Below are positions 50,927 to 54,704 of a stretch of 64,000 nucleotides of DNA, in pieces. A program made the position numbers and the translations under genes. Each line of letters starts with the position of its first letter. Position 1 is the first letter of the stretch. Under the pieces are notes generated by a model. That model did no database searches and was not told the origin of the DNA. It was given only the letters and a program-made list of their open reading frames with translations. The stretch lies in the NCBI RefSeq assembly GCF_002288825.1, contig NZ_NSLI01000003.1, positions 372,001 to 436,000 of the forward strand. The letters run 5' to 3'. Source of the DNA: Sphingomonas lenta. Its GTDB lineage: Bacteria; Pseudomonadota; Alphaproteobacteria; Sphingomonadales; Sphingomonadaceae.

Positions 50927-52840
50927 TCATTGGCAAGCCAAGCACTCGTCATAGTCGGTGCTCTCGCCCAAATCGAAGCGCGGCTTGTCGATCGTGTTGT
51001 CCGCCTCGACGCCGCCCTGGCCCTCGGCACCCGCGAAGCCCGCGCGCTGCACTGACTTAGAGCGGAGATAGTAGAGCGACTTGATGCCGAGCTCCCAGGC
51101 GCGGAAGTGGAGCATGAGGAGGTCCCACTTCTCCACGTCGGCGGGGATGAACAGGTTCAGTGACGCCGACTGGTCGATATAGGGCGTGCGGTCGGCGGCG
51201 AGCTCGATCAGCCAGCGCTGGTCGATCTCGAAGCTGGTCTTGTACACGTCCTTCTCGTCGGCCGACAGGAAGTCGAGGTGCTGGACGGAGCCGCCATGCT
51301 CCAGGATCGAGTTCCACACCGCGTCGGCGTTCTTGGACTTCTCGATCAGCAGCTTCTCGAGATACGGGTTCTTGACCGCGAAGGAGCCCGACAGCGTCTT
51401 GTGCGTGTAGATGTTGGCCGGGATGGGCTCGATGCACGCGGACGTGCCGCCGCAGATGATGGAGATGGACGCGGTGGGCGCGATCGCCATCTTGCAGCTG
51501 AAGCGCTCCATCACGCCCACGTCCGCGGCGTCGGGGCAGGGGCCGCGCTCGTGGGCGAGCACCATCGACGCCTCGTTCACCTGGGCGTTGATGTGCTTGA
51601 AGATCTTGAGGTTCCAAGACTTGGCCATCGCGCCCTCGAAGGGGAGGCCGCGCGCCTGGAGGAAGGAGTGGAAGCCCATGACGCCCAGACCCACCGACCG
51701 CTCGCGCGCGGCGGAGTAGGCGGCGCGCTCCATGCCGGGCTCGGCGCGGTCGATGTAGTCCTGGAGCACGTTGTCGAGGAAGCGCATCACGTCCTCGATG
51801 AAGCGGCGATCGTCCTTCCACTCGTCCCAGGTCTCGAGGTTGAGCGAGGAGAGGCAGCACACCGCGGTCCGGTCGTTGCCGAGATGGTCCTTGCCCGTCG
51901 GCAGCGTGATCTCCGAGCAGAGGTTCGAGGTCGAGACCTTGAGGCCCAGCTCGCGGTGATGCTTGGGCATCGCCTTGTTCACATGGTCGGAGAAGACGAT
52001 GTAGGGCTCGCCGGTCGCGAGGCGGGTCTCGACGAGCTTCTGGAACAAGGCGCGGGCGTCGACCTTGCCGCGGACACTGCCGTCCTTGGGCGACTTCAAC
52101 TCCCACTCCGCGCCGTCGCGCACTGCCTCCATGAACGCGTCGGGGATGAGCACGCCGTGATGGAGGTTGAGCGCCTTGCGGTTGAAGTCGCCCGAAGGCT
52201 TCCGGATCTCCAGGAACTCCTCGATCTCGGGATGCGAGATGTCGAGGTAGCAAGCGGCGGAACCGCGGCGGAGCGAGCCCTGGCTGATGGCGAGCGTGAG
52301 GCTGTCCATCACGCGGACGAAGGGGATGATGCCGCTGGTCTTGCCGTTAAGGCCGACGGGCTCGCCGATGCCGCGGACGTTACCCCAATAGGTGCCGATG
52401 CCGCCGCCGCGCGACGCGAGCCAGACATTCTCGTTCCAGGTCTCGACGATGCCGTCCAGGCTGTCGGGGACCGAGTTCAGGTAGCAGCTGATCGGAAGGC
52501 CGCGCCCGGTGCCGCCGTTCGACAGCACGGGGGTCGCCGGCATGAACCAGAGGCGCGAGATATAGTCGTAGAGCCGCTGCGCGTGCTCCTGGTCGTCGGC
52601 ATAAGCCGAGGCCACGCGGACGAACAGGTCCTGGATCGTCTCGCCGGGGAGAAGGTATCGGTCCTTCAGCGTCTCCTTGCCGAAGTCGGTCAGGAGCCCG
52701 TCGCGGCCGTGGTCGACCTCGAGCGGGAAGGGGCGCTTGGCGGGCGCCTTCGCCTGGTTGGGGGCGGCGGCGCTCGCCGCCGGGCTCTCCATCGTCTCCG
52801 TGCTCACGTTCTCGGCCCCTTGCGTGTCGCGAAAATCCAT
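50927..52840 (-). CDS. nrdA: Ribonucleoside-diphosphate reductase alpha subunit (class Ia, short form)
   Basis: 637 aa. Catalytic ten-strand barrel with the redox cysteine in PISCYLNS (Cys119), the radical cysteine in STSNLCSEI (Cys308), the second redox cysteine in AVCCLSSLN (328/329), and the C-terminal shuttle pair ECLACQ. The N-terminus is a Pro/Ala-rich tail of ~40 residues with no ATP-cone, so dATP overall inhibition through that domain is absent in this subunit. It is first in a unit with two small ORFs and nrdB. Confidence 0.96.
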   Translation of the reverse strand: MDFRDTQGAENVSTETMESPAASAAAPNQAKAPAKRPFPLEVDHGRDGLLTDFGKETLKDRYLLPGETIQDLFVRVASAYADDQEHAQRLYDYISRLWFMPATPVLSNGGTGRGLPISCYLNSVPDSLDGIVETWNENVWLASRGGGIGTYWGNVRGIGEPVGLNGKTSGIIPFVRVMDSLTLAISQGSLRRGSAACYLDISHPEIEEFLEIRKPSGDFNRKALNLHHGVLIPDAFMEAVRDGAEWELKSPKDGSVRGKVDARALFQKLVETRLATGEPYIVFSDHVNKAMPKHHRELGLKVSTSNLCSEITLPTGKDHLGNDRTAVCCLSSLNLETWDEWKDDRRFIEDVMRFLDNVLQDYIDRAEPGMERAAYSAARERSVGLGVMGFHSFLQARGLPFEGAMAKSWNLKIFKHINAQVNEASMVLAHERGPCPDAADVGVMERFSCKMAIAPTASISIICGGTSACIEPIPANIYTHKTLSGSFAVKNPYLEKLLIEKSKNADAVWNSILEHGGSVQHLDFLSADEKDVYKTSFEIDQRWLIELAADRTPYIDQSASLNLFIPADVEKWDLLMLHFRAWELGIKSLYYLRSKSVQRAGFAGAEGQGGVEADNTIDKPRFDLGESTDYDECLACQ

Positions 52841-53180
52841 ACGCCGCGCTCCCGTCTTTCCCTGTTTTGTTCCGAATCGCCGGCGCGCACCTCTCCTATC
52901 ACCGGAGTCGCCCCCGGCGAGAACAAAAGGTGATCATGTGCGTACCGTCGATCCGCTCGACCCAGTGCCGTCTATAACGCTTGCACCAGCACTTGGGTCC
53001 TCTCCCGAAACGAACCGCAACAGATTGTGGAAATCCGCCACGCGATGCAAGGGGGTGAATAGGTCGTCAACCGGACCGAAGACGGGGCGACCGGGTCCGC
53101 GACGCGCGGATTTCCGCCGGGTCCGCGATCCGCAAGGGAACGGAGCTGGAACGAAAATAATTAGATGTGGAAGGACCGGT
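52841..53180. other. Region upstream of nrdA without a gene
   Basis: 340 bp between nrdA (minus strand) and the RNA-like element. It should hold the nrdA promoter; I cannot point to convincing NrdR boxes. No ORF with supportable content, tRNA or repeat is visible. Confidence 0.4.
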
Positions 53181-53183
53181 CCG

Positions 53184-53280
53184 GTTCCGCTTGCCGGAAC
53201 GGGGCCGATGCGGTAACGACGTCGTGCGGACCGGGCCCCTCTGGCGGCGGCTTTTCAGCCCCCCGCGATGTCGGACCGCA
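53184..53280 (+). promoter_or_regulatory. Structured RNA-like element, copy 1 (upstream of the DUF465 gene)
   Basis: Architecture: hairpin GTTCCG/CGGAAC (53184-53200), then stem P1 TGCGGACCG (53225-53233) with CGGACCGCA (53272-53280). P1 encloses conserved block CCGGGCCCCTCTGGCG (53231-53246), a variable hairpin GGCT-TTTC-AGCC, and conserved block CCGCGATGTCGG (53263-53274). Copy 2 at 53608-53694 has the same two blocks but different, compensating stem sequences. This is the pattern of a conserved RNA motif. It lies 96 nt before the DUF465 start. Confidence 0.6.
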
Positions 53281-53375
53281 TCGAGCGTGCTCGGTGCCGG
53301 TTCGGGGCGACGTCGCTCCCCCACCACTCGGAAGGCCGAGCGCCTCGATCTGTCGCAAGCACGATGGAGAGGTGG

Positions 53376-53591
53376 ATGACCAACTATGTCGATCGGTTGA
53401 GGAAGGCGCACCAGGCCCTGTCGGACGCGATCCGTCGCGAGGCCGCGAGGCCGGGCGCGGACATGCTCGCGCTGGCGGTGCTGAAGAAGCGGCGGCTGCT
53501 GATCAAGGACCGGTTATCGGCGCTGCTGCGCGAAGCGACGGGCCTGCGCACCGTGCGCCGCGCGCGCGCCCGGCGCATGCAGCGCGCTTGA
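53376..53591 (+). CDS. DUF465 (YdcH-like) small helical protein
   Basis: 71 aa from the ATG at 53376 (GGAGAGG upstream); an in-frame ATG at 53268 inside the RNA-like element would add 36 low-quality residues. A helical hairpin with LRKAHQALSDAIRREA and LAVLKKRRLLIKDRLSALL, the DUF465 pattern. Members are short coiled-coil proteins of unknown function. It lies between the two RNA-like elements, upstream of terC, and is probably in the same transcript. Confidence 0.75.
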   Translation: MTNYVDRLRKAHQALSDAIRREAARPGADMLALAVLKKRRLLIKDRLSALLREATGLRTVRRARARRMQRA

Positions 53592-53607
53592 CGGAGGTCT
53601 GAACCCG

Positions 53608-53694
53608 TCGCCGGTCCGACCGGGACCGGCGGCCACCAATGATCCGGGCCCCTCTGGCGACCGTCCGAGCCGACGGCCGCGATGTCGGATCGCA
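53608..53694 (+). promoter_or_regulatory. Structured RNA-like element, copy 2 (upstream of terC)
   Basis: Hairpin CCGGTCC/GGACCGG (53608-53632), then P1 GATCCG (53641-53646) pairing with CGGATC (53686-53691). The identical block CCGGGCCCCTCTGGCG lies at 53644-53659, a variable hairpin CCGTC/GACGG at 53661-53676, and CCGCGATGTCGG at 53677-53688. Compared with copy 1, stem bases change in pairs (G-C to A-T and others) while the blocks stay identical. It ends 6 nt before the AGGAGG of terC, well placed to control translation. It does not look like the yybP-ykoY manganese riboswitch that precedes terC-type genes elsewhere. Confidence 0.65.
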
Positions 53695-53711
53695 CTGACG
53701 AGGAGGCTTTG

Positions 53712-54704
53712 ATGGATTGGCTCTTCGCCGAGTTCCTCGGCACGCCCGCCTGGATGTGGCTGGGCTTTCTGGGCGTCGTGGCGGCGCTGCTCGCGCTGGA
53801 CCTGGGCGTTCTCCACCGCAAGCGGCGCGAGATCGGCGTGGGGGAGAGCCTGATGCTCTCCGCCTTCTACATCGCGCTGGGGCTAAGCTTCGGCGGCTGG
53901 GTCTGGTGGTACATGGGCCCGGACGCGGGCATGAACTACATCACCGGCTTCGTGGTCGAGAAGAGCCTGGCGATGGACAACGTGTTCGTGATCGCCATGA
54001 TCTTCGGCTATTTCGCGATCCCGAGGGCGTACCAGCACCGCGTGCTCTTCTGGGGTGTGCTGGGCGTGATCGTGCTGCGCGCGATCATGATCGGGCTGGG
54101 CGCGACGCTCGTCGAGCGGTTCGAATGGGTGCTCTACGTCTTCGCGGCCTTTCTGATCGCGACGGGCGTCAAGATGTGGATGATGGCGGACAAGGAGTAT
54201 GACGTGGGCGCGTCGCCCGTGCTCCGCTGGGTTCGGCGGCGGTTCCGCGTGACGGACGGGCTGGAGGGCGAGCGCTTCTTCGTGAGCCGCGCCGATCCGG
54301 CCACGGGCCGCGTCCGCCGCTACGCCACGCCCTTGTTCCTGGCGCTCATCATGATCGAGTTCGTGGACGTGGTGTTCGCGGTCGACTCGGTGCCGGCCAT
54401 CTTCGCCATCACCACCGACCCGTTCATCGTCTACACGTCCAACATCTTCGCCATCCTGGGGCTGCGCGCGCTCTACTTCGCGCTGTCCGCCATGGTGGCG
54501 CGGTTCCACTATCTCAAATACGCGCTGTCCGTGCTCCTGATGTTCATCGGCTCCAAGATCTTCGCCGCCGACCTGCTCGGCCTCGATAAGGTGCCGCCGG
54601 CCGTGTCGCTGTCGGTCACCTTCGCCATCCTGGGCGCGGGCGTCGCCTACTCGCTGTGGAGGACGCGCGACCGGCCGTACGGGCCGGCGGAGGCGCGACG
54701 ATGA
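53712..54704 (+). CDS. TerC/Alx-family membrane protein
   Basis: 330 aa from the ATG at 53712 with AGGAGG 5 nt upstream. About eight to nine membrane spans; the family aspartates are visible in ALLALDLGVLHRK, SLAMDNVFVIAMIF and EFVDVVFAVDSVPAIFAIT. A large cytoplasmic loop lies near residues 160-195. Alx/MeeF-type TerC proteins export Mn2+ and are often under metal-responsive RNA control; here a new RNA-like element precedes it. No ter operon is present, so tellurite resistance is not implied. It is coupled to a 35-aa peptide downstream. Confidence 0.92.
   Translation: MDWLFAEFLGTPAWMWLGFLGVVAALLALDLGVLHRKRREIGVGESLMLSAFYIALGLSFGGWVWWYMGPDAGMNYITGFVVEKSLAMDNVFVIAMIFGYFAIPRAYQHRVLFWGVLGVIVLRAIMIGLGATLVERFEWVLYVFAAFLIATGVKMWMMADKEYDVGASPVLRWVRRRFRVTDGLEGERFFVSRADPATGRVRRYATPLFLALIMIEFVDVVFAVDSVPAIFAITTDPFIVYTSNIFAILGLRALYFALSAMVARFHYLKYALSVLLMFIGSKIFAADLLGLDKVPPAVSLSVTFAILGAGVAYSLWRTRDRPYGPAEARR

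Follow-up and report, generated by a model that had tools for sequence, protein, structure and literature searches.

Two terC RNA elements before DUF465 and terC in Sphingomonas lenta: covarying structure, candidate expression platforms and a possible link to pH and ion homeostasis

The two structured elements that precede a DUF465 gene and a terC gene in Sphingomonas lenta are additional members of a catalogued RNA family, the terC RNA (RF03067). Both are located within the 64,000-nucleotide stretch of DNA analyzed here (hereafter, the window), and both matched the full 59-position Rfam model (positions 1-59) in a cmscan of the window, with 58.2 bits for copy 1 and 56.9 bits for copy 2 at a gathering cut-off of 39.9 bits. 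The founding description of the terC RNA was reportedly given by Weinberg and colleagues in 2017; the literature on the motif that we covered, which did not include that description, yielded no function for RF03067. This analysis contributes a wider set of targets, a reverse test and the expression platform presented below, with any overlap with the founding description left aside.

We propose that both elements act as cis-regulatory switches. According to this proposal, to which we give slightly less than an even chance and which draws on sequence comparison and folding predictions, the P1-P2 fold would form in response to a signal for which alkaline pH or a linked ion is the best candidate, and would expose the ribosome site, turning the gene ON. 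A broader reading is more doubtful and is put forward only tentatively: the terC RNA could form a class of ON riboswitches distinct from yybP-ykoY, which would sense pH or ions and run an alkaline and ion-homeostasis regulon (TerC, secreted carbonic anhydrases, NhaA, Na+/Ca2+ exchangers, and Bax1-I) across the Alphaproteobacteria. It would do so with two platforms: long leaders would use a four-helix exchange, and in short leaders the aptamer loop would directly capture the ribosome site. Both designs would stand in series in the window, one ahead of DUF465 and the other ahead of terC.

Identity and core structure of the two elements

Copy 1 (53223..53283, plus strand) is located between a divergent reading frame of 637 amino acids, whose upstream-side end is at 52840, and the DUF465 gene, and copy 2 (53636..53697, plus strand) between the DUF465 gene and the TerC gene. 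The DUF465 gene (53376..53591, plus strand; PF04325, E 1.6e-12) encodes a small 71 amino acid protein and starts about 100 nucleotides past the end of copy 1. Its ribosome-binding site, GGAGAGG (53366..53372, plus strand), was assigned from the sequence, the choice of start codon and the fold, in which it adjoins a local hairpin. The TerC gene (53712..54704, plus strand; PF03741, E 6.3e-53) encodes a membrane protein of 330 amino acids, an Alx-like length. Its start (ATG at 53712) is 24 nucleotides from copy 2, and its ribosome-binding site, GAGGAGG (53700..53706, plus strand), which folding without constraints predicts to be paired with GGCCCCUC, an invariant part of copy 2, is found just past the end of this element. 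Beyond the terC RNA, the sole family over its cut-off in the Rfam scan of the window was one tRNA.

A preliminary description, covering 53184..53694, had reported twin elements 410 bp apart with two long shared blocks, the second copy ending right before the terC ribosome site. This span was about right, the start-to-start spacing is 413 bp, and the position of copy 2 was correctly placed. Both blocks were found in both copies: CCGGGCCCCTCTGGCG at 53231-53246 (copy 1) and 53644-53659 (copy 2), and CCGCGATGTCGG at 53263-53274 (copy 1) and 53677-53688 (copy 2). The stems also pair as described, even though their letters differ. In copy 1, the P1 core is formed by 53228-53234 with 53271-53277, extending outward to 53225/53280, and P2 by 53244-53251 with 53259-53266, with an invariant internal loop (GCCCCUCUG / GAUG); in copy 2, P1 is formed by 53641-53647 with 53685-53691 and P2 by 53657-53664 with 53673-53680 (all plus strand). 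The window copies thus have the same P1, P2, internal loop and position upstream of terC as the terC RNA. The Rfam model stops after P1, and the platform of P3, anti-P1 and distal arm presented below falls outside it.

The suggestion that this RNA is undescribed had to be abandoned, since both elements match RF03067, an outcome that the preliminary description had itself named as refuting. Its view of a structured, covarying and probably cis-regulatory RNA before terC agrees with that match and with the covariation of P1 and P2; further instances, the lack of which it had named as refuting, are many in the genus, family, class and phylum samples alike, and the metal- or pH-linked role that it considered is one that the downstream genes now found would fit.

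Covariation was analyzed on 316 de-duplicated fuzzy matches in 301 fetched loci, a sample weighted to the window's own family, of which 296 elements with 293 distinct cores were kept. Most of the 20 dropped matches look like chance, but no fewer than two of them are true elements: the first lies at the edge of L154, and the second, in L264, has an Rfam match of 43.2 bits, over the cut-off. Over the 293 cores, standard pairs filled 754 of 879 cells for the three variable P2 pairs (0.858, compared to 0.429 on average and 0.478 at most when permuted) and 894 of 1172 cells for the four outer P1 pairs (0.763, compared to 0.577 on average and 0.610 at most), with permutations that ignore relatedness, and all four Watson-Crick types occur at each tested P1 and P2 pair. 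Judged from these sequences, pairing in P1 and P2 is in excess of chance, and this covariation indicates that the stems are conserved, as the preliminary description had supposed. One position, adjacent to the P1 core, does not pair: it was standard in 87 of 293 cores, the same as permuted, and presents a conserved A (260/293) opposite a mismatch. Of the 293 cores, 287 have an identical 5' loop block. Because neither copy was more stable than its dinucleotide shuffles (z -0.51 for copy 1 and -0.10 for copy 2), the evidence for structure is covariation, not stability.

Candidate expression platforms in long and short leaders

On the basis of sequence and prediction only, the long leaders, including that of copy 1, carry an expression platform with mutually exclusive helices. 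A hairpin P3 of at least six Watson-Crick pairs directly follows P1 in 91 of 122 long leaders (78 to 125 nucleotides), compared to 7.7% of shuffles; in copy 1 it corresponds to 53278..53297 (plus strand; GCAUCGAGC / GCUCGGUGC), with GCA common to it and the outer P1 3' strand. A distal arm located 20-odd to 50 nucleotides upstream of the start codon could form an alternative helix with the 5' arm of P3, as in copy 1, where CUCGAU (53344..53349, plus strand) is the complement of AUCGAG. Of 57 leaders, 40 have a distal arm that fits the 5' arm of P3, in the combinations AG-CT (16), GA-TC (15) and GG-CC (9), compared to 15.6 on average and 27 at most in 2000 permutations ignoring relatedness; the other 17 are mismatched, and a distal CGAT arm is absent from 36 of 93 leaders. 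Runs of at least 8 pairs between both arms were present in 27.5% of real leaders versus 1.1% with swapped partners. Finally, an anti-P1 segment (GGUUCGG in copy 1, 53299..53305, plus strand) can pair with the P1 3' strand (UCGGACC) to give an extended P3, as suggested by the fold and by an enrichment of 7-pair matches to the P1 3' strand, which were present in 20% of 99 leaders versus 1.1% of shuffles. Taken together, the P3, distal-arm and anti-P1 matches imply that P1, the extended P3 and the alternative helix would be mutually exclusive.

Folding of 106 long leaders predicts that formation of P1 exposes the ribosome site, which was unpaired at 0.369 with P1 favored versus 0.244 with P1 penalized; the mean difference of 0.125 compares to -0.006 in 318 shuffled leaders (Mann-Whitney p 9e-9, relatedness ignored). 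Since the ribosome site is more open when P1 is favored, the aptamer fold is predicted to turn the gene on. In soft-constraint folding of copy 1, the exchange of helices was strong, the alternative helix reaching 0.70 with P1 favored versus 0.08 with P1 penalized, but the ribosome site opened little (0.18 versus 0.12). Unaided, P1 was formed in 13% of the long-leader ensemble.

In the mechanism that we propose, alkaline pH or a linked ion, a signal that we infer from the genes controlled, would favor the P1-P2 fold. In long leaders, P1 is predicted by folding to compete with the extended P3 hairpin; where P1 wins, the freed 5' arm of P3 would take the distal arm, leaving the ribosome site on average more open. 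For short leaders like the one of copy 2, the prediction is that the ribosome site is paired by the invariant loop GGCCCCUCU itself as long as P1 is absent. The direction would be ON, with the aptamer fold turning on the gene.

The platform of the long leaders does not fit into the short leader of copy 2 or those of many terC genes. Within 62 short TerC leaders, 31% have a ribosome-site complement of at least 6 to the invariant block, versus 10-11% of controls, and in the 44 with a recognized site the pairing of ribosome site and invariant block was 0.53 versus 0.37 in controls. Coupling of this pairing to P1 was not significant in these short TerC leaders (p 0.09, n=44), and coupling between P1 and the ribosome site was absent in the other short leaders (p 0.40, n=25). 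For copy 2 itself, the unpaired value of the ribosome site went from 0.14 to 0.23 in the P1 folding comparison. It is likely that copy 2 pairs its ribosome site with the invariant loop, as modeled, with support that is weaker than for the long leaders.

An intrinsic terminator was also considered as the platform and rejected. The scan of 52700-53800 gave a single terminator-like site (53016-53042, minus strand; shuffles mean 0.6), which is away from both elements and points away from them. No sigma-70-like promoter was found in the same interval (52700-53800).

Downstream genes and the candidate signal

Genes within 1.6 kb downstream of the 296 elements were labeled by tblastn with chosen representatives, on which Pfam was run; nine elements were left without a label (six with none and three with too little sequence). 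A TerC-superfamily gene follows 163 of the 296 elements, including 123 Alx-like TerC, 27 of a second TerC subtype (the representative of which has no CBS domain by Pfam) and 13 DUF475. DUF465 is the first gene behind 68 elements, in which role it is second only to TerC, and it often stands ahead of TerC or Bax1-I; PF04325 was matched by 51 of the 65 DUF465 candidates scanned out of these 68. Other elements are followed by Bax1-I (22/296), alpha-carbonic anhydrase (10/296), beta-carbonic anhydrase (6/296), a Na+/Ca2+ exchanger (10/296) or NhaA (4/296), and a P-type cation ATPase and a CitMHS-type transporter were single cases; TerB is also present. Many downstream genes have no stated link to pH, for example DUF465, Zn-ribbon, DUF4112, YegS, and Tim44, and for one cluster (c13) the name 'NTF2-like' found no Pfam support. 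The gene inventory of the terC RNA is hence wider than the name of the family implies. In five loci (L228, L246, L262, L263, and L265), a conserved frame of approximately 84 to 91 amino acids is located between the element and, mostly, a Na+/Ca2+ exchanger; the one member scanned had no Pfam match.

The reverse test started from the genes. The 119 same-family genomes contain 19 alpha-carbonic anhydrase genes, distributed in 18 genomes, and 10 of these 19, from nine genera, have an RF03067 match 164-248 nucleotides upstream of the domain start on the same strand, with a chance expectation of about 0.001 genes (a hand estimate from 101 matches over approximately 380 Mb). An eleventh case (G014) presents the element, NhaA and alpha-carbonic anhydrase in this order on one strand, in what looks like one operon. 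NhaA was found behind an element in three of the 119 genomes (G014, G054, and G099), so that most NhaA genes in these genomes are unlinked to the terC RNA. No alpha-carbonic anhydrase target was seen outside the family to which the window belongs. Beyond TerC, a target set that includes carbonic anhydrases, exchangers and NhaA, among others, points to pH and ion homeostasis as the field in which the terC RNA targets lie. Alkaline pH or a linked ion is our candidate signal because TerC/Alx, alpha- and beta-carbonic anhydrase, NhaA, the Na+/Ca2+ exchanger and Bax1-I are among the targets; together with the covarying platform, the target list would narrow the possible signals to pH, Mn2+, Ca2+, Na+ and bicarbonate.

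The obvious comparison is with yybP-ykoY (RF00080), which is likewise found before TerC/Alx and cation transporters. The elements share no sequence or structure match with it: RF00080 gave no match over its cut-off in the window, none at E up to 1 in 53100-53800, and none in the genome of the strain. A yybP-ykoY identity is thereby ruled out for the window elements, and the preliminary description was right to call them unlike that family. Alkaline pH and manganese act together on the alx and mntP leaders of E. coli; at the alx leader, a yybP-ykoY RNA, pH 8.5 alone gives a 3.5-fold induction and the highest level is reached with pH and manganese together, and Mn2+ binding is 17- to 22-fold tighter at alkaline pH (PMC9603457). 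By analogy, the terC RNA may work like yybP-ykoY does at alx without belonging to that family. Should alkaline pH or a linked ion prove to be the signal, the terC RNA would be another way for RNA to solve the problem handled by yybP-ykoY at E. coli alx, and a single RNA regulon would link carbonic anhydrases with TerC proteins and antiporters.

It could be argued that the terC RNA simply fills the role of yybP-ykoY through another fold, as a riboswitch for Mn2+ or for divalent cations in general that feels pH only through metal binding, a reading that we regard as rather unlikely. TerC, Na+/Ca2+ exchangers and P-type ATPases are families that are also under yybP-ykoY control, and four Na+/Ca2+ exchangers are located beside RF00080 in the genomes analyzed here; the tightening of Mn2+ binding at alkaline pH in E. 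coli would supply the link to pH (PMC9603457). However, carbonic anhydrases, NhaA and Bax1-I are not known as manganese genes, and RF00080, which is present in 45 of the 119 same-family genomes (28 over its cut-off), occupies other loci in these relatives, with none within 2 kb of the TerC genes listed (the nearest ones, in G107 and G084, are 2.5 kb and 3.3 kb away). The exchangers differ as well among those listed: the four beside RF00080 (G043, G028, G072, and G110) score 50-62 bits for PF01699, whereas at least seven behind the terC RNA (G006, G013, G019, G060, G062, G080, and G105), mostly with a small frame between, score 107-121 bits. Both RNAs thus appear, from these sequences, to sort onto two exchanger subtypes in the same bacterial family. 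This apparent division of the same transporter families, with different members for each RNA, argues against one common signal.

Another small ligand tied to the same physiology, such as bicarbonate or carbonate, Ca2+ or Na+, is in our view improbable, in that none of these ligands singly explains all the families seen, although carbonic anhydrases, Na+/Ca2+ exchangers and NhaA are all among the targets and Na+ riboswitches with pH-linked targets do exist (PMC9337991). The Na+-I riboswitch (DUF1646 motif) and the nhaA-I motif are comparable ion-linked RNA classes, found before antiporter genes and once orphan motifs (PMC9337991), but the window has no Rfam match to either over the cut-off. With little more than a slim chance, the leader could instead be bound by a regulatory protein, with the invariant loop as the protein site and P1-P2 as its scaffold: the core is small (59 positions), its loop is almost invariant, as in the 5' block, and one protein regulator could be common to many unrelated genes. 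The occurrence of the element outside the Alphaproteobacteria (6 of the 45 matching genomes of the phylum sample) speaks against such a regulator. Lastly, it is scarcely credible that the conserved ATG in GATGTCGG is the start codon of the downstream proteins and that its conservation is partly coding. This ATG opens a frame into the next gene in both window copies (53268-53591 and 53682-54704), but it is in frame in 71 of 261 elements and open into the gene in 33 of 261, no more than chance, and the frames that start from it are mostly short; a start codon inside the motif was rejected on these counts. We retain a switch that responds to alkaline pH or a linked ion as the preferred reading, at the strength given at the outset.

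Distribution of the terC RNA

The genome of the strain contains five terC RNA copies, two of them in the window. A third copy is located 287 nucleotides upstream of a second TerC gene, another copy precedes a DUF465-like gene followed by Bax1-I, and the fifth precedes a small frame without assignment. A match was present in 22 of 61 genomes of the genus sample (absent from 39), in 67 of 119 of the family sample (absent from 52), in 40 of 289 of the class sample and in 45 of 299 of the phylum sample, the latter including the six genomes of another class mentioned above. An exact-pattern scan of named genomes gave at least 119 stretches; the matches listed include Sphingomonas, Caulobacter, Rhizobium, Bradyrhizobium, Paracoccus, Methylobacterium, and Azospirillum within the Alphaproteobacteria, and Pseudomonas and Arenimonas outside this class. 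All 16 stretches that were rescanned are over the Rfam cut-off; the genes behind them include an alpha-carbonic anhydrase, NhaA, Bax1-I, a Na+/Ca2+ exchanger, a P-type ATPase and a CitMHS gene.

One record, under the title Bacillus subtilis SK6B4 (L113), has a terC RNA of 61.8 bits in a leader that resembles those of the Rhizobium records, and is probably mislabeled or contaminated. In three genomes of the class sample (loci L162, L171, and L179), divergent pairs of terC RNAs are found 114 to 150 nucleotides apart, one before TerC and the other before DUF4112. In a genome of the same genus (locus L187), the order seen in the window, that is element, DUF465, element and TerC, recurs with a 300-nucleotide gap between the elements.
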